Origin: Nitrospinota bacterium
Lineage (GTDB): Bacteria; Nitrospinota_A; UBA7883; JACRLM01
Length of the DNA: 64,000 nucleotides
Direction: 5' to 3'
NCBI GenBank assembly: GCA_016208975.1
Contig: JACQXA010000004.1
Span: 1,861,015 to 1,925,014 of the forward strand
Shown here: positions 4,153 through 15,343 of the stretch, piece after piece
Layout: the number at the start of each line of letters is the position of its first letter
How positions within the stretch are numbered: the stretch's first letter is position 1
Position numbers and translations under genes: made by a program
Notes under the pieces: generated by a model
Database searches by the model: none
What the model was told of the DNA's origin: nothing
The model's input: only the letters and a program-made list of their open reading frames with translations

Positions 4153-6993
4153 TTGACATCCAACGGAATGCGGGAACTTCTGGAGACACTGCTGGAGATT
4201 TCCTCCGCGGTGACATCCCTCAACCCCGATTTGACCGATAAAAAAACCATCTCCGATGTAATGCTTGCCCTGGAGAAAATCGCGCCGGATATCCGTTCGT
4301 CCGCTTCTCCCAAAGTAGCCCGTCTTGCGGACGCCCTTACGGTGTTATACGAAAAGTTCCTAATGGAAACCATCCCCGACGGAGGGCCGGGCATTGAATG
4401 TACCAAAAACGGGGTTATCACCATTCAGGCGGCGCTAAAAGGGGAAAAACAACCCCAACAGGCAGACGCCGAATCGGACCAGATAGTAAACGTTTTGTCT
4501 GAATTTTACGGAATCAACCCGCCACCCGCCGCGCCTTCCAAGCCAGCAGGCCACGCTGAAAAGGAGGAGGAGCTTTCCGCTTCCGAAGGGGGTGAGGGGT
4601 CCGGGGAAGAAGACCTTTTCGCAGGCTTTGACATGGAGCCCAAGGAACTCCCTGAGGAAGCCCCATCGGCCCCGGCGGACCCTATCCGCCAAAGGCTGGA
4701 TAAAGTAGCCTCCGGCGTTACCATGCTGGAGCCGGACCTTGGGGACAAGAAGGCCGTTGCGGACATCCTGGTGGAGATGGAATCGCTGACGACGGAGCTC
4801 AAGGGCGGCGGATATGACGAAGCGGTGTGCGGCCTGGCGGCCTCCGTGGGGAGAATATACGAGAAAGCCCTGCTGGAAGGGCTTGACGAAGGGCAGAAGG
4901 CCATAAACCTTTCAACCAGCGGCATCAAAGCCCTTCTTGCCGCGCTGGAAAAAATAGAGACCAGCGGCGAAGTTGCCAGGGAAGCCTTGCGCATTTCCGG
5001 GGACATTGCCGGTTTTCTTGGCGGCCCGCAAGCCGCTCCAACGGCGCAACCTGCTCCTGCGGCGCCAGAACCGCCCAAGACCGCGCCCCCGCCTCCTCAG
5101 CCATCCCCAGCGGCCAAACCCGTTGAGAAAATCGGCCCGGTGACACCGGCCGGGGTGGACACGGTGAAAGTGGCCAGTGACGACGACCTCCTGCTTTACA
5201 CCGAGTTTGTGGCCGAGGCGCAGGAGACGGTGGCCAATGTGGAGAACGACCTGCTGGAGCTTGAGGCAAGCCCCGAGAGCGATGAAATAGTAAACAACCT
5301 TTTCCGCGCCATCCACAGTTTGAAAGGCGCGGCCGGGTTCCTTGGGATAAACACCATAAACGTGCTGTGCCATGAGGCCGAATCGCTCATGGACAGGCTT
5401 CGCAAGAAGACAGCCTATTGCACACAGGAAATGATAGACGCGTTCCTTAAAACCGCCGATGTCATAAAGTTGGTGAATGAGGGGCTTTCTTCCAGTTGCC
5501 AGAAAGCCAAGGGCTCCATGCCCGACGCGTCGCTGGATATCCCCCGATATGAGATAAGCGGTTTGTTGAGAGTGCTTTCGGCCCTTACCCAGCGCAAGCA
5601 GGAGGCCGCGCCGCCGCCCCCCTCGCCGGAAGAGGGAATGACTGGGGAACAGGTTGAGGCCGAAAAGCTTGGCGACATACTGGTCCATAAACACGCCATA
5701 TCACCGGAGCAGTTGGAAGAGGCCCTCCACAGCCAGAAACCCCTGGGCGAAATTCTCGTGCACATGGGCGCCGTGGACGAAAAAGCCCTGGGCGAAGCGT
5801 TGCACGAGCAGGAGGAGAAACGCAAGAAGGCCGTTGTCACCGCCTTAAAAGTGGATACCGAAAAGCTCGACAGCCTGCTGGAGCTGGTGGGGGAACTGGT
5901 GATCTCCCAGTCCATCGTGGCGCAAGACCGGGTTCTGCAGGAGGAAGCAAACCGGGCGTTCCAGAAGAACGTGCTGAACCTGGGGAAGATAACCAAGAAC
6001 ATCCAGGACCACGTGATGGGCCTGCGCATGGTACAGCTAAAGCAGACGTTCCAGAAGATGAGCAGGCTTATCCGTGACCTTTCCAAAAAGATGGGCAAGC
6101 AGGTGGCTTTCCATCTTTCCGGGGAGGAGACGGAAATAGACAAGACCATCATAGAGGAACTCAACGATCCTCTGGTCCATCTTCTCCGCAACTCCATGGA
6201 CCATGGGGTGGAGGCCCCGGAGGACCGGCGGGCCGCGGGCAAAAGCGGGGTTGGGAACGTTTGGCTGTCTGCTTACCACCGGGGCGGAAACGTTTACATC
6301 GAGGTGAAGGACGACGGCAAAGGGCTGGACAAGGACAGGATACTTAAAAAAGCCGCGGAGAAAGGGCTTGTCAAGGATGGCATGGAGCTTTCGGAGCCGG
6401 AAATTTTCAACCTGGTTTTCCTTCCCGGTTTCTCCACCGCCGCAAAGGTGACCGACGTATCCGGCCGGGGCGTGGGGATGGACGTGGTGCGCTCCAACAT
6501 AGACAAGATGGGCGGCAAGGTGGAGATTACGAGCAAGCCCGGCTCCGGCTCCACATTCACAATAAAGCTCCCGCTTACCATGGCCATTGTGGACGGGATG
6601 ATCGTAAGGATCGGGGGGGAGCGGTTCATCATCCCCACCGTGTCCATCCGGGAATCCATCCGGCCCAGGCTGGAGGAGATATCCACCGTGAGGCGGGAGG
6701 GGGAGATGATAAACATCCGGGGCAGGCTGTTGCCCCTAATACGGCTCCACAACATTCTGAAGGTGAAAGACGCCCAGTGCATGAACCCGTGGGAGGGGCT
6801 GGTGATCATAGTGGAAAGCGACGAGAAGGAATACGGCCTGATGGTGGACGACCTTTTGGGCCAGCAACAGGTGGTTATTAAAAGCCTTGGCAGAAGGTTC
6901 AAAGGGCTTCCGGGCATATCCGGGGGGACAATTTTGGGCGATGGGCGCGTGGGGCTGATACTGGACGTTTCCGGCGTCATCGGGATGAACTGA
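4153..6993 (+). CDS. cheA: CheA-type hybrid-length histidine kinase with MshEN-like motif
   Basis: A 946-residue chemotaxis kinase, much longer than E. coli CheA (about 650). Order: two copies of a helical segment of about 90 residues (roughly 7-95 and 180-270) that share LNPDL/LEPDL, DKKTISDV/DKKAVADI and LYEKFL/IYEKAL; a Pro/Ala-rich linker (290-335); an HPT domain with phospho-accepting His388 (AIHSLKGAAGF); a tandem KLGDILV...ALHSQ / PLGEILV...ALHEQ motif (505-553) like MshEN; dimerisation helices (from 565, LDSLLELVGELV); the HATPase domain (HLLRNSMDHG, DDGKGLD, GRGVGMDVV); and a CheW-like domain to the C-terminus. No receiver is fused. The TTG start has GAGGATG upstream. It heads the chemosensory operon. 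Confidence 0.95.
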   Translation: MTSNGMRELLETLLEISSAVTSLNPDLTDKKTISDVMLALEKIAPDIRSSASPKVARLADALTVLYEKFLMETIPDGGPGIECTKNGVITIQAALKGEKQPQQADAESDQIVNVLSEFYGINPPPAAPSKPAGHAEKEEELSASEGGEGSGEEDLFAGFDMEPKELPEEAPSAPADPIRQRLDKVASGVTMLEPDLGDKKAVADILVEMESLTTELKGGGYDEAVCGLAASVGRIYEKALLEGLDEGQKAINLSTSGIKALLAALEKIETSGEVAREALRISGDIAGFLGGPQAAPTAQPAPAAPEPPKTAPPPPQPSPAAKPVEKIGPVTPAGVDTVKVASDDDLLLYTEFVAEAQETVANVENDLLELEASPESDEIVNNLFRAIHSLKGAAGFLGINTINVLCHEAESLMDRLRKKTAYCTQEMIDAFLKTADVIKLVNEGLSSSCQKAKGSMPDASLDIPRYEISGLLRVLSALTQRKQEAAPPPPSPEEGMTGEQVEAEKLGDILVHKHAISPEQLEEALHSQKPLGEILVHMGAVDEKALGEALHEQEEKRKKAVVTALKVDTEKLDSLLELVGELVISQSIVAQDRVLQEEANRAFQKNVLNLGKITKNIQDHVMGLRMVQLKQTFQKMSRLIRDLSKKMGKQVAFHLSGEETEIDKTIIEELNDPLVHLLRNSMDHGVEAPEDRRAAGKSGVGNVWLSAYHRGGNVYIEVKDDGKGLDKDRILKKAAEKGLVKDGMELSEPEIFNLVFLPGFSTAAKVTDVSGRGVGMDVVRSNIDKMGGKVEITSKPGSGSTFTIKLPLTMAIVDGMIVRIGGERFIIPTVSIRESIRPRLEEISTVRREGEMINIRGRLLPLIRLHNILKVKDAQCMNPWEGLVIIVESDEKEYGLMVDDLLGQQQVVIKSLGRRFKGLPGISGGTILGDGRVGLILDVSGVIGMN

Positions 6994-7059
6994 CATCGCG
7001 GCGCAGGATTGCCTGAAGTTGCTATAATTTGAAAACCAAATTAATAGGTTTTGAAGATA

Positions 7060-7485
7060 ATGTCCATTAATGTACTCATAGTGGATGACGAAGAGGGGAT
7101 ACGCAAATCCCTTACAGCCTACCTTAAAATGGAAGGCTACTCGGTGGACTCCGCCGAAAACGGCAAGGACGCCCTTGAAAAGCTGAAAAGCTCCAAATAC
7201 AACATAGTCCTGCTGGACATAAACATGCCTGAGATGGACGGGCTGGAGACGCTTCAGAGGGCCAAGGCGGTGGATTTTTCGATCCAGGTGATCATGATGA
7301 CCGCCTACTCGACGTTTGAGAAAACAATGAAGTCGCTGGAGTTCGGCGCGTCGGATTATATTTTAAAGCCGTTCGACGACCTTACGGAGATTCTGCGTCT
7401 GGTGAGGCTGTCCGAGGAGAAGCTGGAGCGGTGGCGCAAGAACATGAGCGCAACCATCATAAAACAGAGGAAAGAGAGCATTTAG
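7060..7485 (+). CDS. Single-domain response regulator (CheY-like)
   Basis: A 141-residue receiver protein. It shows the acidic pair VDDEEG, the phospho-acceptor Asp in VLLDINMPEMDG, the Thr in MMTAY and the Lys in ILKPFDD. After the receiver fold there is a short charged helix (EEKLERWRKNM) that recurs in the second receiver of this locus, so the two are probably paralogs. It follows the first CheA and precedes CheR; it is the likely phosphate acceptor of that kinase. A TTG at 7051 is an alternative start, but the ATG at 7060 places the first strand at the normal distance. No DNA-binding domain is present, so the output is protein-protein interaction. Confidence 0.92.
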   Translation: MSINVLIVDDEEGIRKSLTAYLKMEGYSVDSAENGKDALEKLKSSKYNIVLLDINMPEMDGLETLQRAKAVDFSIQVIMMTAYSTFEKTMKSLEFGASDYILKPFDDLTEILRLVRLSEEKLERWRKNMSATIIKQRKESI

Positions 7486-7567
7486 TTCCGGTGAGAGGGG
7501 CTGACGTTTTATTTCGCCAGAAATGTGACTTGGGTTATGAGCGCCCGTTACGCGCTACGAGAGGGAA

Positions 7568-8440
7568 ATGCCGGTAAACGCTGACACTTTGGCCTACGGG
7601 CCCCTGGACCTGTCGGACAGGGAGTTTGAGATGTTCCGTGCGCTCATCTTCGAGAAGAGCGGCATAAATCTCAACGAGGGGAAGAAAGAGCTGGTGCGCA
7701 CAAGGCTTGGCGGCCGCCTGCGCAAGGGAGGGTTCCGCTCCTTCATGGAGTATTATAAATACGTCACCCAGGACGTAAGCGAGAGCGAGCTTGTCACCCT
7801 GCTGGACGCGATTTCCACAAACCTCACAAGCTTTTTCCGGGAGGCCAACCATTTCAACTATCTTAAAAAGAATGTCCTGCCGGATGTCCTGCTAAGAAAG
7901 AAAACAGACCCGTTAAAAGAGATCCGCGCCTGGAGCGCAGGCTGTTCGACGGGGGAGGAGCCTTACTCCATCTCGTTTATCCTGCTGGAGACGCTGGAGA
8001 GCATGCCTTCCATGGACGTAAAGCTCCTGGCCACGGACCTTTCCACCAAAGTGCTAGCCAAAGCCGCCCGGGGTATATACACCGCCGAACAGGTCAAGTC
8101 GGTGCCTAAAGAGCTTCTACCCCGGTATTTCGATATCGAACACATCAACGATGAGAAGTTCTACAGGGTGGGGCAGAAAGCGCGGGGTATCGTGCAGTTC
8201 AAGCGTTTCAACCTGATGACGCCCACTTTCCCGTTCAAGCGCAAGTTCGACTTCATATTCTGCCGGAACGTGATGATCTATTTCGACAAGCCGACCCAGC
8301 AGACGCTGATAAACAAGTTTTACAACGCGCTGGCTCCGGGCGGCCATCTTTTAATCGGCCATTCGGAAAGCCTGACGGGCGTGCAACACCGGTTCAAGTA
8401 CGTCCAGCCCACCATATACAGAAAACAAGAACAGCAGTGA
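7568..8440 (+). CDS. cheR: Chemoreceptor glutamate methyltransferase
   Basis: A 290-residue S-adenosylmethionine-dependent enzyme that methylates glutamates of chemoreceptors and so raises kinase activity during adaptation. The N-terminal helical domain (about 10-85) has SGINLNEGKKELVRTRLGGR. The methyltransferase fold carries the SAM-binding motif WSAGCSTGEEPYSI and, near the end, FDFIFCRNVMIYFDKPTQQ, both diagnostic of CheR. There is no C-terminal TPR or receptor-tether domain. The ATG at 7568 has GAGAGGGA upstream. The stop overlaps the GTG/ATG region of the next receiver, so the two are coupled. The partner esterase CheB lies 3.4 kb downstream and the receptor is at 13.3-15.3 kb. Confidence 0.95.
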   Translation: MPVNADTLAYGPLDLSDREFEMFRALIFEKSGINLNEGKKELVRTRLGGRLRKGGFRSFMEYYKYVTQDVSESELVTLLDAISTNLTSFFREANHFNYLKKNVLPDVLLRKKTDPLKEIRAWSAGCSTGEEPYSISFILLETLESMPSMDVKLLATDLSTKVLAKAARGIYTAEQVKSVPKELLPRYFDIEHINDEKFYRVGQKARGIVQFKRFNLMTPTFPFKRKFDFIFCRNVMIYFDKPTQQTLINKFYNALAPGGHLLIGHSESLTGVQHRFKYVQPTIYRKQEQQ

Positions 8441-8445
8441 CAGTG

Positions 8446-8859
8446 ATGGAAACAAAAATTCTGATAGTTGACGATGAAGAGGGGATAACAAACTCCCTCA
8501 CCCGTTACTTCAAGATGAACGAATACCATGTGGACAGCGTAAACTCCCCCAGGGAAGCCCTGCGCATGATCCAGAACGAGAATTACATGGTTATAGTCTC
8601 CGACATCATGATGCCGGAGATGAACGGCATAGAGCTTCTCAGGAAGATAAAAGAGTTCAACGGCATGATCCAGGTGATTATGATGACCGGGGTGGTGTCC
8701 ATCGAGAACGTGCTTACCTGCCTGCGCTACGGCGCCAACGACTGTTTCCTGAAACCGTTGGACGACCTTTCGATTATGCGGAAGGCCGTGGATGAGGCCG
8801 TCGCCAAGCTGGCCAAATGGGAAGCCCTCATCAAACAGATGGTATGCAGGAAACACTGA
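8446..8859 (+). CDS. Single-domain response regulator (CheY-like), second copy
   Basis: A 137-residue receiver with VDDEEG, the phospho-acceptor Asp in VIVSDIMMPEMNG, Thr in MMTGV and Lys in FLKPLDD. It closely resembles the receiver at 7060, including a charged C-terminal helix (KLAKWEALIKQM). It directly precedes the second CheA, mirroring the first kinase/receiver pair, which points to duplication of a CheA-receiver unit. An in-frame GTG at 8437 overlaps the cheR stop (GTGA); the ATG at 8446 is taken because it gives a normal N-terminus (METKILIVDDE). No output domain. Confidence 0.92.
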   Translation: METKILIVDDEEGITNSLTRYFKMNEYHVDSVNSPREALRMIQNENYMVIVSDIMMPEMNGIELLRKIKEFNGMIQVIMMTGVVSIENVLTCLRYGANDCFLKPLDDLSIMRKAVDEAVAKLAKWEALIKQMVCRKH

Positions 8860-8861
8860 AC

Positions 8862-10859
8862 ATGATGATGGACGGGATTGACAAGGAGATCCTTGACGAG
8901 TTCATCAAGGAGACCATGGAGGAACTGGACGGCCTGGACGCCCAGTTCATATCCCTGGAGAAAAATCCAAAGGACTCCGATGTCATAAACTCCATATTCA
9001 GGACCGTCCATTCCATCAAGGGCTCGGCCTCTTTTTTCAACCTGAACCATATCCGCAACTTCGCCCACAAGTTCGAGAACCTGCTAGACGAGCTTCGCAA
9101 AGGAAAACGGACGGTAACCTCCGAGATTGTGGACTTGCTCCTGAAAGGCAAAGACTGTCTGGACGGCATGTTCAAAAGGCTGGCCGCCGGTGACCTGAGC
9201 GGAGACCTCAAGGATGAGGAGAGCCACGCCCTGGCGGTTGTGGAGCGCATACTCGCCTCCGCCGACGAGGCAGAAAAACCCACTCCGCAAGTGCTGTTCC
9301 AGCGCATCCTTGATATGCGGCGGGTGCTAGCCGAAGACGGCCTCCTGCAACGGCCATCAGTCACCGCGCTTTTTGCGCTGGTGGAGGAGTTGAAACTTGC
9401 CGTGCTGGGGGACGAGGCGAAGGAAGAGGGGGTTGTCCCCAAACTGGGGGAGATCCTGGTGGAGCAGGGGGTGATAAGCCACAAAGACGTGGCCGAGGCC
9501 CTTTCGTCGCAGAAACGGCTTGGGGACATCCTGGTGGAGCAGGGGAAGGTCACGCCGGAGGCCATTCAGCAGGCGGCGGAGCTCCAGCGCAAGAAAACCG
9601 AGGATACCGTGGCCGAGAAGGTATCCAAAGAGGCGGAAAAGGTCACCGAAAAAAAAGCCGGCATCAGGAAAACCATGCGCATAGAAGAGGAGAAGATAGA
9701 CGGCTTCATGGCGCTGGTGGGGGAACTTATAATCAACGCCGAGGTTTTCAATTACCTGCAGAAGAAAATAGAACTGGGTGTTGATCCGGGCAAGATCGCC
9801 TCGGAGTTCAAGAACGCAAACCTCGAGTTCAACGAGTTGACCTTCAAACTCCAGCGGGGGCTGGCGGAAGTCCGCAAGGTGTCCATAAACGGCATTTTCC
9901 AGAAACTCCCCCGCATGGTACGCGACCTGGCCAACTCCACCGGCAAACAGGTGGATTTCTCCATGGCCGGGGAAGACCTGCTCATAGATAAAAGCCTCTT
10001 CGAGCAGTTGGAGGCGCCCATGAACCACATCATAAGAAACGCCGTGGACCATGGCCTGGAACCGCCCACGGAGAGGGTAGCGGTTGATAAAGATCCCATA
10101 GGCAAAGTTTTCGTGAAGGCCGAGGAGGATGGCGGCGACCTTGTGATAACCGTTAAGGACGACGGGCGGGGATTGGACGCCAACCGGTTGAGGGCCAAGG
10201 CTGTGGAAAAAGGCATAATCAGCCAGGCTGCGGCGGAACTGATGCCCGACAGGGAGGCCTACCGGCTTATATTCGCCGCCGGGTTCTCCACCGCCCAGAA
10301 AATCACCGACGTTTCGGGCCGCGGGGTGGGAATGGACGTGGTGATCACCGCCGTCAAGGAGGCCAAGGGGAAGGTGGACATTGATACCGACCTGGGTAAT
10401 GGAACCACCTTCCTTATAACCATGCCCATGTCCAACACGCTCATTACCATTTCCGGCCTGTTGGTGGCCGTGGGCAAGGAAAGCTACATAATACCCATGG
10501 AGTGGGTGAGGGAGTCGTTGAAGCCCGCAAGGGGGCAGATATCCTCCGTCAAACGGGCCGGTGAGGTGGTGGAGATAAGGAACACCCTTTACCCCCTTTT
10601 AAGGCTTCACAACGTGTTCGGCGTAAAGCCGAAGTTCACCGACCCGTGGGACGGGGTTGTGATGGTGCTGGACAAGGACGGCCAGCGGTGTTGCCTCATG
10701 GTGGACGAGATCGTGGAGGAGACCCAGGTTGTGTTAAAAGACCTGGGCAAAACTTTCAGGAACATAAAAGGCATCCTGGGCGGGGCCATACTCGGCGACG
10801 GGCGCGTGGGGCTTGTGCTCAACGTGGAAGGGCTCATGCAGGAAGGCATGGTTGTTTAG
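8862..10859 (+). CDS. cheA: Second CheA-type histidine kinase with MshEN-like motif
   Basis: A 665-residue kinase. HPT domain at the N-terminus with His50 (RTVHSIKGSASFF). Then a linker and, at about 190-240, the tandem motif KLGEILVEQGVIS...EALSSQ and RLGDILVEQGKVT...AAELQ, the same arrangement as in the first CheA and close to MshEN. Next come dimerisation helices (DGFMALVGELI), the ATP-binding domain (HIIRNAVDHG, DDGRGLD, GRGVGMDVV) and a C-terminal CheW-like domain. The helical repeats of the first CheA are absent. Starts at 8817 and 8844 are also open; the ATG at 8862 follows AGGA and the preceding stop codon, and puts the HPT helix near residue 7. It probably signals to the adjacent receiver. 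Confidence 0.94.
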   Translation: MMMDGIDKEILDEFIKETMEELDGLDAQFISLEKNPKDSDVINSIFRTVHSIKGSASFFNLNHIRNFAHKFENLLDELRKGKRTVTSEIVDLLLKGKDCLDGMFKRLAAGDLSGDLKDEESHALAVVERILASADEAEKPTPQVLFQRILDMRRVLAEDGLLQRPSVTALFALVEELKLAVLGDEAKEEGVVPKLGEILVEQGVISHKDVAEALSSQKRLGDILVEQGKVTPEAIQQAAELQRKKTEDTVAEKVSKEAEKVTEKKAGIRKTMRIEEEKIDGFMALVGELIINAEVFNYLQKKIELGVDPGKIASEFKNANLEFNELTFKLQRGLAEVRKVSINGIFQKLPRMVRDLANSTGKQVDFSMAGEDLLIDKSLFEQLEAPMNHIIRNAVDHGLEPPTERVAVDKDPIGKVFVKAEEDGGDLVITVKDDGRGLDANRLRAKAVEKGIISQAAAELMPDREAYRLIFAAGFSTAQKITDVSGRGVGMDVVITAVKEAKGKVDIDTDLGNGTTFLITMPMSNTLITISGLLVAVGKESYIIPMEWVRESLKPARGQISSVKRAGEVVEIRNTLYPLLRLHNVFGVKPKFTDPWDGVVMVLDKDGQRCCLMVDEIVEETQVVLKDLGKTFRNIKGILGGAILGDGRVGLVLNVEGLMQEGMVV

Positions 10860-10871
10860 GGTGGCGGGAAA

Positions 10872-11819
10872 ATGAACGACGATCTGATGGCGGAATTTTT
10901 CACCGATACCCAGTCGCACCTGGAGGCTATCGAGGAGCTTATCCTGATTATAGAAAAAGAGGGGTTCGCTTCCGGGGCCATAGACGACATGTTCCGCCGC
11001 GTCCATTCCATCAAGGGGAACGCCGGGGTGCTCGGGCTAGGGCCAATCCATACCGAGGGAATGAAATTCGAGACATTCCTGGATGGGATAAGGGAGCGGA
11101 AAGCCGCCACGGCCGATGAGATGGACCAGATGTTTTCAGGGCTCGACGCGCTAAGGGAGATAGTGGGGCGCGTGCGGGAGGAAAAAGGGATGGGGCACGC
11201 GCCCAAACGGGAGGAACCGAAACGCCAGGCCCCGCAGGCCCCGGCGGCTACCTCAGCTTCCCCTGTCCCGCCACAGTCCCAACCCGTAAGCGACACGCGA
11301 GTGGAAGTTCCCGAAAAACCTTCCTCTCCCATCCCCCAACCTGCCCATGAAGAGCGGGAAAGGGTTTCCAGGGTTATTCATGACGAAGACCTTGTCACTT
11401 TCCTTTCCTTCGAGCTGGACAGTGAGTTGTTCGGCGTTGAGATACTCAAGGTACGGGAGATAATACTGCGCGAGATAGTGACTCCAGTGCCTAACACCAA
11501 ATCCTTCGTCCAGGGTGTGATGAACCTGCGTGACCAGATAATCCCGGTGTTCGACCTGCGGCGCCGGCTGGGGATGGGCTCCGGCGGTAATGACGAGAAA
11601 AACGTGGTGATAATAGAGATCGGCAAAGTCACCACCGGCCTTCTGGTGGACGATGTAAAGGGTATTGTGACCATAGCGGGGAAGGATATCGCCCCGCCGC
11701 AACAGTTTCACGGTAGCGTTCCCACGGATTTTTTATACGGCATCGGCAGGACCGGCGAAGGCACCATTGTGCTTTTGGACGCTCTGGATCTTTGCGATCC
11801 GGAAGAGCTTTTATACTAA
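10872..11819 (+). CDS. HPT-CheW fusion adaptor protein
   Basis: A 315-residue protein with an unusual architecture. Residues 1-105 form a histidine phosphotransfer domain with His45 in RRVHSIKGNAGVLG, resembling the HPT of the preceding CheA. A Pro/Ala-rich linker (about 110-165) follows. Residues 172-315 are a CheW domain (LVTFLSFELDSELFGVEI, VMNLRDQIIPVFDLRRRLG, GLLVDDVKGIVTIA). It has no ATPase domain, so it cannot phosphorylate itself but could take phosphate from a CheA and bring it to the receptor array, acting as a coupling protein and phosphate store at once. It is the only CheW in the locus. It starts 12 nt after the second cheA, in the same operon. Confidence 0.93.
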   Translation: MNDDLMAEFFTDTQSHLEAIEELILIIEKEGFASGAIDDMFRRVHSIKGNAGVLGLGPIHTEGMKFETFLDGIRERKAATADEMDQMFSGLDALREIVGRVREEKGMGHAPKREEPKRQAPQAPAATSASPVPPQSQPVSDTRVEVPEKPSSPIPQPAHEERERVSRVIHDEDLVTFLSFELDSELFGVEILKVREIILREIVTPVPNTKSFVQGVMNLRDQIIPVFDLRRRLGMGSGGNDEKNVVIIEIGKVTTGLLVDDVKGIVTIAGKDIAPPQQFHGSVPTDFLYGIGRTGEGTIVLLDALDLCDPEELLY

Positions 11820-11849: not shown

Positions 11850-12890
<1,041 letters not shown>

Positions 12891-12897
12891 GGGTTGA

Positions 12898-13272
12898 ATG
12901 ACTCCCGATATCAACGATCCCAAGGGCAGAAGGAAAAGGAAAAGGATCCACTTCATCACCGAGATCGTGATAAACCACGGGGGGCAGATAACCGTTTACA
13001 AACGCACCCACGATATCAGCATGAACGGGGTCTTCGTGTCCACCGCCAAGCCGTTGCCCTTGGGGAGCGAGGGGGATTTTTCGTTGATCTTGAGCGTCGG
13101 CATGCGGCGGGAACAGATAAACGGCCGGTTCATAGTGGCCCGGGTGATATCCATGGACGAGGGGCTTTCCGAGCCGGAGCAAGGGCCGGGGATGGGGCTT
13201 AAGTTTACCGGGATAGACCCGGACGCAAGCGAGCTTCTCTACAACCTGGTGCTCTACAACCAGCCTGATTAG
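12898..13272 (+). CDS. PilZ-domain cyclic-di-GMP receptor protein
   Basis: A 124-residue single PilZ domain. The two cyclic-di-GMP binding motifs are present: an Arg-rich RxxxR (RRKRKRIHF, residues 8-16) and DxSxxG (HDISMNGVF, about 39-47). It starts 7 nt after cheB and is therefore the last gene of the chemosensory operon. Small PilZ proteins usually bind the second messenger and change flagellar or secretion machinery. Placed here it links the chemosensory system to cyclic-di-GMP, which fits the MshEN-like motif in both CheA proteins. It ends before a terminator shared with the convergent receptor gene. Confidence 0.9.
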   Translation: MTPDINDPKGRRKRKRIHFITEIVINHGGQITVYKRTHDISMNGVFVSTAKPLPLGSEGDFSLILSVGMRREQINGRFIVARVISMDEGLSEPEQGPGMGLKFTGIDPDASELLYNLVLYNQPD

Positions 13273-13342: not shown

Positions 13343-15343
13343 CTAAAAATCCTTGAAATCATCGTCATCCAGAGGGATCAAATGATCCCCCTTGGAGGCG
13401 CCTCCGGAACTCTTGGCGGGTTTGTCTTCGGCAGGCTTCTTGGGAGCCCTTCCACCCACAAGACCCTTCACCGGCCTGGTGGCCTTGCCGCCGGGGCGAG
13501 CAGTGGACGCCCCTCCCGCGGCGCGGCCCCTGGAGCCGCCATGAGTGCCCTCGACGAGGCCCGTAAGCCTATCCACGACACCTTTCATGGACTCCGCCTG
13601 GGCCGACAGCTCTTCGGCGGCGGCGGCGGTCTCCTCGGCGTTGGAGGCGGTCTGCTGGGTCACCGAGTCCATCTGGGTGATGGCCTTGTTCACCTGGTCC
13701 ACCCCTTGCGCCTGTTCGTTGGACGCGGCGGCAATCTCGCCCACAAGGTCGGTCATTTTCTTCACGCTCTCCACGATGCCGGACAGCATCTGGCCAGCCT
13801 TGTCGGCTATCTCTCCGCCGCTGGCGGCTTTTTTCACCGCGTCTTCGATAAGCGCCGCGGTGTCCTTGGCGGCCGTGGCGGACCTTTGGGCCAGGTTCCT
13901 CACCTCTTCGGCCACTACGGCGAAACCCTTGCCATGCTCCCCGGCCCGGGCCGCTTCCACCGCGGCGTTGAGGGCCAGAAGGTTGGTCTGGAAGGCTATC
14001 TCCTCGATGACCTTGATGATCTTGTTGATCTCCTGCGATGACTGGTTTATGGCCCGCATGGACGATATCATCTCGTGCATGGCCTCGGCGCCCTTCTCGG
14101 CTTCCGTGCGGGTATCCCTGGCCAGCGAGTTGGCGTGATTGGCGTTGTCGGCGTTCTGCTGGGTCATGGAGGTTATCTCCTCCAGCGCCGATGATGTCTC
14201 CTCCAGCGAGGAGGCCTGTTCCGTGGCGCCCTCAGCCAGCGACTGGCTGGCCCCAGAAATCTGCCCCGCCGCCGAAGTCACCTGGCCGGATCCTTCGCTA
14301 AGCTCATCCACGATGACCATTATCGGTTTTGATATGGAACGGGCCAGCCAAATGCCAAGCCCCATGGCCAGGATGGCGGCCACTATCACCACCACCACCA
14401 TAACTACCTGGGTGATGCTGGAGTCGGATTCGGAGGTTTTCACGGCCTCCTCGGCTATGTCCACGTTGAGTTTCACCAGGTCGTCCAGCAGTTTGTTGGA
14501 TTTGGCGAAATTCTCGGCCACGGGCCCAAGCACATGGTCCTGCATGGCCTCCACCTTTTCATCGGCCTCGTTGGCCACATCGTGGATGGTGGCCATCTGC
14601 TGGCGGACCACCATGGCGGTGGCCTCGGCTTCCTGTAGCACCTTTATCGCTTCAGCCTGCCTGCCTACCGCAATAAGGTCTTTCACCCTTTTCCCGGCTT
14701 CATGCAGATGACGGTGGGGTTCCTCTATGGCCTTTAGGGCTTCCTGCAGTTTGGGGCTCTCGGTTTTATAGGCGTAATACCATTTACCGAAATTACACTG
14801 GGTTGGGTCTATTTGGCCGGTGAATTCGCTTTTATGGATTACAGCGTCGTTGAGTTTCTCAATCCATTCCACGTGCTCCAGCAGACGGGACTTGATGTTC
14901 CATTTAAGCTCCATCGGGGTGTCGATTTTCGTTTCATCCACCTCGCGGGACATGGCCAGGGCTTTGTCCAGCTCCTCCCTCCATTTTTTCCACACGGGCA
15001 CGAATTCCTGCCACATCCTGGCTTCTTCAGTGGTTTGGGGAAGGGGCTCGTAAATCTTCCAGCCTCTTTCCGCCTTGTCCAGGTATTTGGCCATACGCTC
15101 GTACTGGGGTTTCTTCTTTTCCAGCTCCAGTTCGGCAATGGTGAGGGTGCGCATGGCCATGCCCGCTGATGCCTGCCCTTCGGCCATCATTAGCAGACCC
15201 TGTACCGAAGGCAACCGGACAACGCCAACTTCATTGAGGTGCCCGCTCATGCGGATGACGCCGAAAAGCCCTATTACACCTGTAAGGGTGGTAAGAATGG
15301 CAACCGCAATGAATCCTGCGATCAGCTTGGTGGATAGTTTCAT
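13343..15343 (-). CDS. Methyl-accepting chemotaxis protein with CZB zinc-binding domain
   Basis: A 666-residue transmembrane receptor. TM1 is at about 8-30, a periplasmic region at 31-300, and TM2 at about 304-330, followed by HAMP-like and coiled-coil signalling helices. The sensory region contains a CZB (chemoreceptor zinc-binding) type segment: His157 (LLEHVEWIEKL), Cys183 in the hallmark CNFGKW, and His210/His214 (EPHRHLH), the expected three-His one-Cys set. The cytoplasmic hairpin tip is conserved (EIAFQTNLLALNAAVEAARAG, GKGFAVVAEEVRNLAQRSA). The C-terminus is Gly/Lys-rich and ends in DDDDFKDF rather than a CheR-tethering pentapeptide. It is convergent with the chemosensory operon and is the only receptor gene in the window. 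Confidence 0.95.
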   Translation of the reverse strand: MKLSTKLIAGFIAVAILTTLTGVIGLFGVIRMSGHLNEVGVVRLPSVQGLLMMAEGQASAGMAMRTLTIAELELEKKKPQYERMAKYLDKAERGWKIYEPLPQTTEEARMWQEFVPVWKKWREELDKALAMSREVDETKIDTPMELKWNIKSRLLEHVEWIEKLNDAVIHKSEFTGQIDPTQCNFGKWYYAYKTESPKLQEALKAIEEPHRHLHEAGKRVKDLIAVGRQAEAIKVLQEAEATAMVVRQQMATIHDVANEADEKVEAMQDHVLGPVAENFAKSNKLLDDLVKLNVDIAEEAVKTSESDSSITQVVMVVVVIVAAILAMGLGIWLARSISKPIMVIVDELSEGSGQVTSAAGQISGASQSLAEGATEQASSLEETSSALEEITSMTQQNADNANHANSLARDTRTEAEKGAEAMHEMISSMRAINQSSQEINKIIKVIEEIAFQTNLLALNAAVEAARAGEHGKGFAVVAEEVRNLAQRSATAAKDTAALIEDAVKKAASGGEIADKAGQMLSGIVESVKKMTDLVGEIAAASNEQAQGVDQVNKAITQMDSVTQQTASNAEETAAAAEELSAQAESMKGVVDRLTGLVEGTHGGSRGRAAGGASTARPGGKATRPVKGLVGGRAPKKPAEDKPAKSSGGASKGDHLIPLDDDDFKDF

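Follow-up and report, generated by a model that had tools for sequence, protein, structure and literature searches.

A compact MshEN_N-like module between the Hpt and dimerisation domains of paired CheA kinases: a candidate cyclic-di-GMP sensor

The locus and its tandem linker units

The chemosensory locus examined here, which lies in a 64,000-nucleotide stretch of Nitrospinota DNA (the window) from a genome of 2.97 Mb, raises the question of whether CheA kinases may read cyclic-di-GMP (c-di-GMP) directly through repeated units in their linkers. Both kinases of the locus, CheA1 and CheA2, contain Hpt, H-kinase_dim, HATPase_c and CheW domains in that order, all above the Pfam cut-off, and the features on which the analysis draws are listed below by position in the window.

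4153..6993, + strand: cheA1, 946-residue CheA kinase with HPT, MshEN_N-like linker, dimerisation, HATPase and CheW domains (open reading frame and Pfam)
5194..5439, + strand: Hpt domain of CheA1, residues 348-429 (Pfam E 1.8e-13)
5665..5736, + strand: CheA1 motif I, KLGDILVHKHAISPEQLEEALHSQ, residues 505-528 (sequence and profile searches)
5737..5739, + strand: CheA1 spacer, one residue, Lys529 (five in canonical MshEN, PMC5013675)
5740..5811, + strand: CheA1 motif II, PLGEILVHMGAVDEKALGEALHEQ, residues 530-553 (sequence and profile searches)
5842..6018, + strand: CheA1 dimerisation domain P3, residues 564-622 (PF02895 E 1.5e-12)
7051..7485, + strand: CheY-like response regulator (Pfam)
7568..8440, + strand: CheR methyltransferase (Pfam)
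8437..8859, + strand: second CheY-like response regulator (Pfam)
8817..10859, + strand: cheA2, 680-residue CheA kinase (open reading frame and Pfam)
8886..9185, + strand: Hpt domain of CheA2, residues 24-123 (Pfam E 1.4e-15)
9441..9512, + strand: CheA2 motif I, KLGEILVEQGVISHKDVAEALSSQ, residues 209-232 (sequence and profile searches, predicted fold)
9513..9515, + strand: CheA2 spacer, one residue, Lys233
9516..9587, + strand: CheA2 motif II, RLGDILVEQGKVTPEAIQQAAELQ, residues 234-257, with cage Leu21 replaced by Ala (sequence and profile searches)
9669..9860, + strand: CheA2 dimerisation domain P3, residues 285-348 (PF02895 E 1.9e-6)
10872..11819, + strand: Hpt-CheW fusion protein (Pfam)
11865..12890, + strand: CheB methylesterase (Pfam)
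12898..13272, + strand: single-domain PilZ protein directly 3' of cheB (Pfam E 3.5e-10)

The E. coli-type CheA shares the Hpt, dimerisation, HATPase and CheW domains of the window kinases but has P2 where they have the MshEN_N-like module. No Pfam match to a P2/CheY-binding domain was obtained in CheA1 or CheA2 at E values up to 1, such models being of low sensitivity (PMC10782961). At the 3' end of the locus, the PilZ protein carries the c-di-GMP-binding motifs RxxxR (RKRKR) and DxSxxG (DISMNG), as read from its sequence.

Several further features of the neighbourhood were observed. The N-terminus of CheA1 (4183-5022, residues ~11-290) holds two diverged copies of an unannotated and probably helical domain (28% identity over 111 residues, E 1e-15), which are possibly degenerate Hpt domains. 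A free CheW gene (~180 aa) lies between CheA1 and CheR in 12/12 related Nitrospinota loci and is absent from the window at 7486-7567, and a strong free CheW of 197 aa is encoded elsewhere in the host genome (C4:2149343). The locus is adjoined by a convergent chemoreceptor gene (13343-15343, - strand) for which Pfam identifies a four-helix sensor, a CZB zinc-binding domain and a signalling domain.

In both kinases, two 24-residue units separated by a single Lys are located between the Hpt and H-kinase_dim domains. The two units agree at 13/24 positions in CheA1 and 10/24 in CheA2, whereas 1000 shuffles of each whole protein reached at most 10 and 9 identities at that spacing, respectively, so that the tandem arrangement and coordinates described in an earlier note on this DNA were confirmed. 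The claim of that note that both CheAs carry the repeat holds and proved understated, as a third CheA of the host genome (C4:1678237-1678824; L007, L147) also carries tandem units, with a spacer of two residues; downstream of this third gene lie genes for a CheW, a receptor and a CheB.

Both CheAs match the MshEN_N consensus of two tandem 24-residue [RKL]LGxx(hh)xxG(hh)xxxxLxxxLxxQ motifs, with deviations in CheA1 (His for Gly10 in motif I, Pro at position 1 of motif II) and in CheA2 (Val17, Ile17 and Ala21). The spacing was also said to fit MshEN, and here the claim fails, as five residues join the two motifs in MshE (PMC5013675) and one residue joins them in CheA1 and CheA2, short of the canonical length. 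Among 77 CheAs with both motifs, spacers of 1 (20 proteins), 2 (13), 3 (4), 4 (6), 5 (10), 6 (9), 7 (13), 8 (1) and 10 (1) residues were counted, and the one-residue spacer of the window CheAs is the short end of this continuous range.

Homology to MshEN_N and predicted fold

The relationship of these units to MshEN_N was examined by sequence and profile searches. Searching the PDB with phmmer, the CheA linkers matched T. thermophilus PilF (1.5e-10 and 1.1e-14) and V. cholerae MshE (~2e-3), and a profile of 11 CheA linkers run against solved structures matched PilF (2.1e-28), PilB (3e-11) and MshE (2.9e-10). This is further strengthened by profile-profile comparison with the N-termini of three secretion/pilus ATPases of the host genome (97% probability over 51 columns), in which a four-residue gap falls exactly between the units. 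By sequence comparison, the units of CheA1 and CheA2 are homologous to MshEN_N, and the MshEN relationship proposed earlier is supported by the profile searches of both linkers and, for CheA2, by the predicted structure. The condition that the earlier note set for rejecting it, absence of an MshEN match by profile or structure, therefore does not apply.

The Pfam MshEN model, PF05157, gave no match above its curated cut-off in CheA1 or CheA2, which is an artefact of the model. In the secretion/pilus ATPases of the host genome, its match starts at residue 59, 67 or 77, after the tandem motifs; the model is restricted to the C-terminal half of MshEN and therefore misses the CheA units. PF05157 was accordingly rejected as a test of MshEN identity, since it spans residues after motif II. 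The same absent match is the one point in favour of reading the units as a helical repeat that arose by chance or low complexity and has no relation to MshEN, but as the model does not span the motif region, and given profile E-values from 1e-10 to 1e-28, the structural match of CheA2 and conservation across two phyla, we regard such a repeat as extremely improbable. A further likeness is found in DUF4388/PATAN (PF14332), whose model contains one copy of the unit and against which the isolated CheA1 linker scores 26.8 bits (cut-off 25); however, only 34 of its 122 positions (41-74) match the linker, and the remainder is absent from CheA.

AlphaFold2 models of the CheA1 and CheA2 linkers, built from 10 sequences each, both show the four helices expected of MshEN_N, the last of which extends past motif II. 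For CheA2 (pLDDT 79, pTM 0.61), the four-helix bundle of MshEN_N is predicted despite the one-residue spacer: the model superposes on c-di-GMP-bound MshE (5htl) at 1.4 Å rmsd over 58 columns (probability 1.00) and on PilF GSPII-B (8pdk) at 1.0 Å over 50 columns, with weak Foldseek E-values (0.05-0.2), as expected for a module of only ~55 residues. The short spacer as a bar to the MshEN_N fold is not upheld for CheA2. For CheA1, the model (pLDDT 82, pTM 0.47, shallow alignment) has MshE as its best match at 11 Å rmsd and TMq 0.37, so its hairpins are packed differently, at low confidence. Structural agreement with MshEN is thus found for CheA2 and not in the low-confidence CheA1 model, in which the packing difference may be genuine, as it would be in a swapped dimer, or may stem from an error of modelling.

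Short hinges favour domain swapping, and a spacer of one residue could force motif I of one protomer to pair with motif II of the other, placing any ligand site at the dimer interface near P3. CheA dimerises via P3, which in CheA1 starts ~10 residues after motif II, and the CheA1 monomer model is not closed in cis. Nevertheless, closure in cis is predicted for the CheA2 linker, whose spacer is equally short, orthologues with spacers of 2-4 residues interleave with those of spacer 1, and the CheA1 model combines low pTM with a shallow alignment, so that we consider a swap unlikely.

Among known systems, MshE (5htl) resembles the CheA linkers in its two 24-residue motifs, the same helix order and the conserved contact Gly and Gln, and differs in having a MshEN_C subdomain, which the CheA linkers lack along with the five-residue spacer, in its ATPase rather than kinase host, and at position 1, which is K/P or K/R in the CheAs. 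The GSPII domains of PilF (6f8l, 8pdk) are closest in sequence and resemble CheA1 in the Lys at position 1 of GSPII-B and the Pro at motif II of GSPII-C, but have a longer spacer and an ATPase host; binding has been measured in PilF, whereas the CheAs are known from sequence and models.

Ligand-contact residues and the proposed mechanism

In MshE, the ligand is held by position 1, Leu2, Gly3, Leu17, Leu21 and Gln24 of each motif, with Gly3 contacting the base via its backbone amide and Gln24 contacting the ribose and phosphate (PMC5013675). At these six positions, CheA1 reads K-L-G-L-L-Q in motif I and P-L-G-L-L-Q in motif II, retaining all four cage leucines (positions 17 and 21) and both Gln24 residues, whereas CheA2 reads K-L-G-V-L-Q and R-L-G-I-A-Q, keeping both Gln24 residues and losing Leu21 of motif II to Ala. 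Position 1 is compatible with binding as R, K or L in PilF (PMC11731258), the affinity of PilF GSPII-C, whose motif II starts with Pro, is similar to that of MshE, and Arg at this position was rejected as a binding requirement because PilF GSPII-B binds at 6 nM without it. Changing Leu21 of motif II alone in MshE lowers affinity more than 10-fold. This leucine is kept in 14/15 Nitrospinota CheA1 linkers and in 2/15 CheA2 linkers, and the complete cage of CheA1, set against the lost Leu21 of CheA2, makes CheA1 the better candidate c-di-GMP binder.

Across ~103 CheA linkers, in an alignment gathered by homology, which favours conserved columns, Gly3 is kept in 103/103 (motif I) and 105/106 (motif II) sequences and Gln24 in 102/103 (motif II) and 82/109 (motif I), compared with 78/105 and 80/104 for the turn Gly10. 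The higher conservation of Gly3 and motif II Gln24 relative to the turn Gly10 fits a kept ligand site. In family f6, another Nitrospinota family (L036-L043, L141-L146), every linker read, from CheA1 and CheA2 alike, has Lys or Arg in place of motif I Gln24, so that the fold is retained despite partial loss of the site.

The presence of an MshEN_N-like module suggests that CheA1 and CheA2 may read c-di-GMP directly. The reading we favour, though only modestly, is that the CheA module, mainly that of CheA1, binds c-di-GMP and alters the coupling between Hpt and the kinase core. In this mechanism, the MshEN_N-type four-helix module, built of two LGxILV...ALxxQ hairpins and placed where E. coli CheA has P2, would hold c-di-GMP in a pseudo-twofold cage like that of MshE and PilF, most favourably in CheA1. 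The bound ligand would pull the two hairpins together or change their orientation, and this change, passed via the predicted outgoing helix towards the dimerisation domain, would alter how HPT reaches the kinase core, such that cellular c-di-GMP would tune chemosensory output alongside the PilZ protein at the locus end. CheA2, one cage leucine short, would bind more weakly or would retain the module chiefly for a structural or docking role.

A possible but less probable account is that the MshEN_N fold acts in CheA without nucleotide, as a rigid spacer or docking platform replacing P2, with response-regulator docking or HPT positioning as its potential roles. The module does occupy the P2 position, where Pfam finds no P2; the fold is retained in the f6 orthologues that lack motif I Gln24; CheA2 orthologues mostly lack motif II Leu21; and degenerate, non-binding MshEN domains exist, such as that of XpsE (PMC5013675). 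Against a ligand-free module stand the near-invariance of motif II Gln24 and both Gly3 residues while the turn Gly10 varies, the retention of every cage leucine in CheA1, and the PilZ gene that adjoins the locus within the taxonomic order. Direct c-di-GMP binding, mainly by CheA1, remains our preferred reading.

Distribution, genomic context and significance

A genome-wide protein scan returned few, mostly close relatives, so the census was made by profile search of genomes, with a profile spanning the linker to the N-box and counting CheAs whose match begins in the linker. Linker-module CheAs were found in 20/24 Nitrospinota genomes, 13 of which hold the same pair ~4 kb apart, and in at least 86/198 Desulfobacterota genomes in a phylum-wide sample drawn around Desulfoluna. 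A CheA with an MshEN_N-like linker is common in both phyla. A tblastn search of plasmids returned mostly ordinary CheA cores and, in Desulfolutivibrio (H26), a single candidate linker match, with no linker domain detected there by Pfam. In one related locus (L144:1618-3975), the CheA1 orthologue lies in two open frames (579 and 205 aa), either because a frameshift or stop interrupts the kinase or because the assembly is in error.

The gene order CheA1-CheY-(CheW)-CheR-CheY-CheA2-HptCheW-CheB is kept in outline across loci, and PilZ lies directly 3' of CheB in 5/5 related loci of the same taxonomic order in which this position can be read. In the f6 loci, no clear CheY1 was seen and no PilZ was found directly after CheB. 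With motif I Gln24 replaced and no PilZ found at that place, a joint loss of c-di-GMP control in f6 is possible, and the pairing is suggestive as a single evolutionary contrast.

The host genome encodes many c-di-GMP enzymes and PilZ receptors. The genomic context cited in the earlier note stands in part: the PilZ gene at the locus end, kept in the 5/5 readable loci of the taxonomic order, is the better support, while the GGDEF cyclase gene in the window is weak support and was dropped as evidence for c-di-GMP sensing because the genome has 22 GGDEF matches.

CheA is already named, in one sentence, among MshEN-associated proteins (Wang et al. 2016, PMC5013675), and the general idea of an MshEN-CheA combination is consequently not new. 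That study describes the same kind of domain combination, and its main text contains no CheA member, spacer, census or binding test. A survey of CheA domain architectures (PMC10782961) does not mention MshE, and no paper testing c-di-GMP binding by a CheA was found among the openly accessible main texts searched. The present analysis adds the compact spacer, the two-phylum census, the divergence of the paralogues, the linked PilZ gene and a blind spot in Pfam. That blind spot is one of annotation, as the ligand-binding half of MshEN lies outside the Pfam model that bears its name.

More broadly, we judge it an even question whether a large, Pfam-invisible class of Nitrospinota and Desulfobacterota CheAs reads c-di-GMP directly via a compact MshEN_N module in the P2 position, with a spacer of one residue in some lineages and two operon paralogues that differ in affinity. 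Binding of c-di-GMP by these CheAs would give the motile-to-sessile signal a direct route into the kinase at the centre of the chemosensory array, so that the second messenger would target CheA as well as the motor, the receptors or CheR, a shortcut that would apply to many bacteria of the two phyla sampled here.
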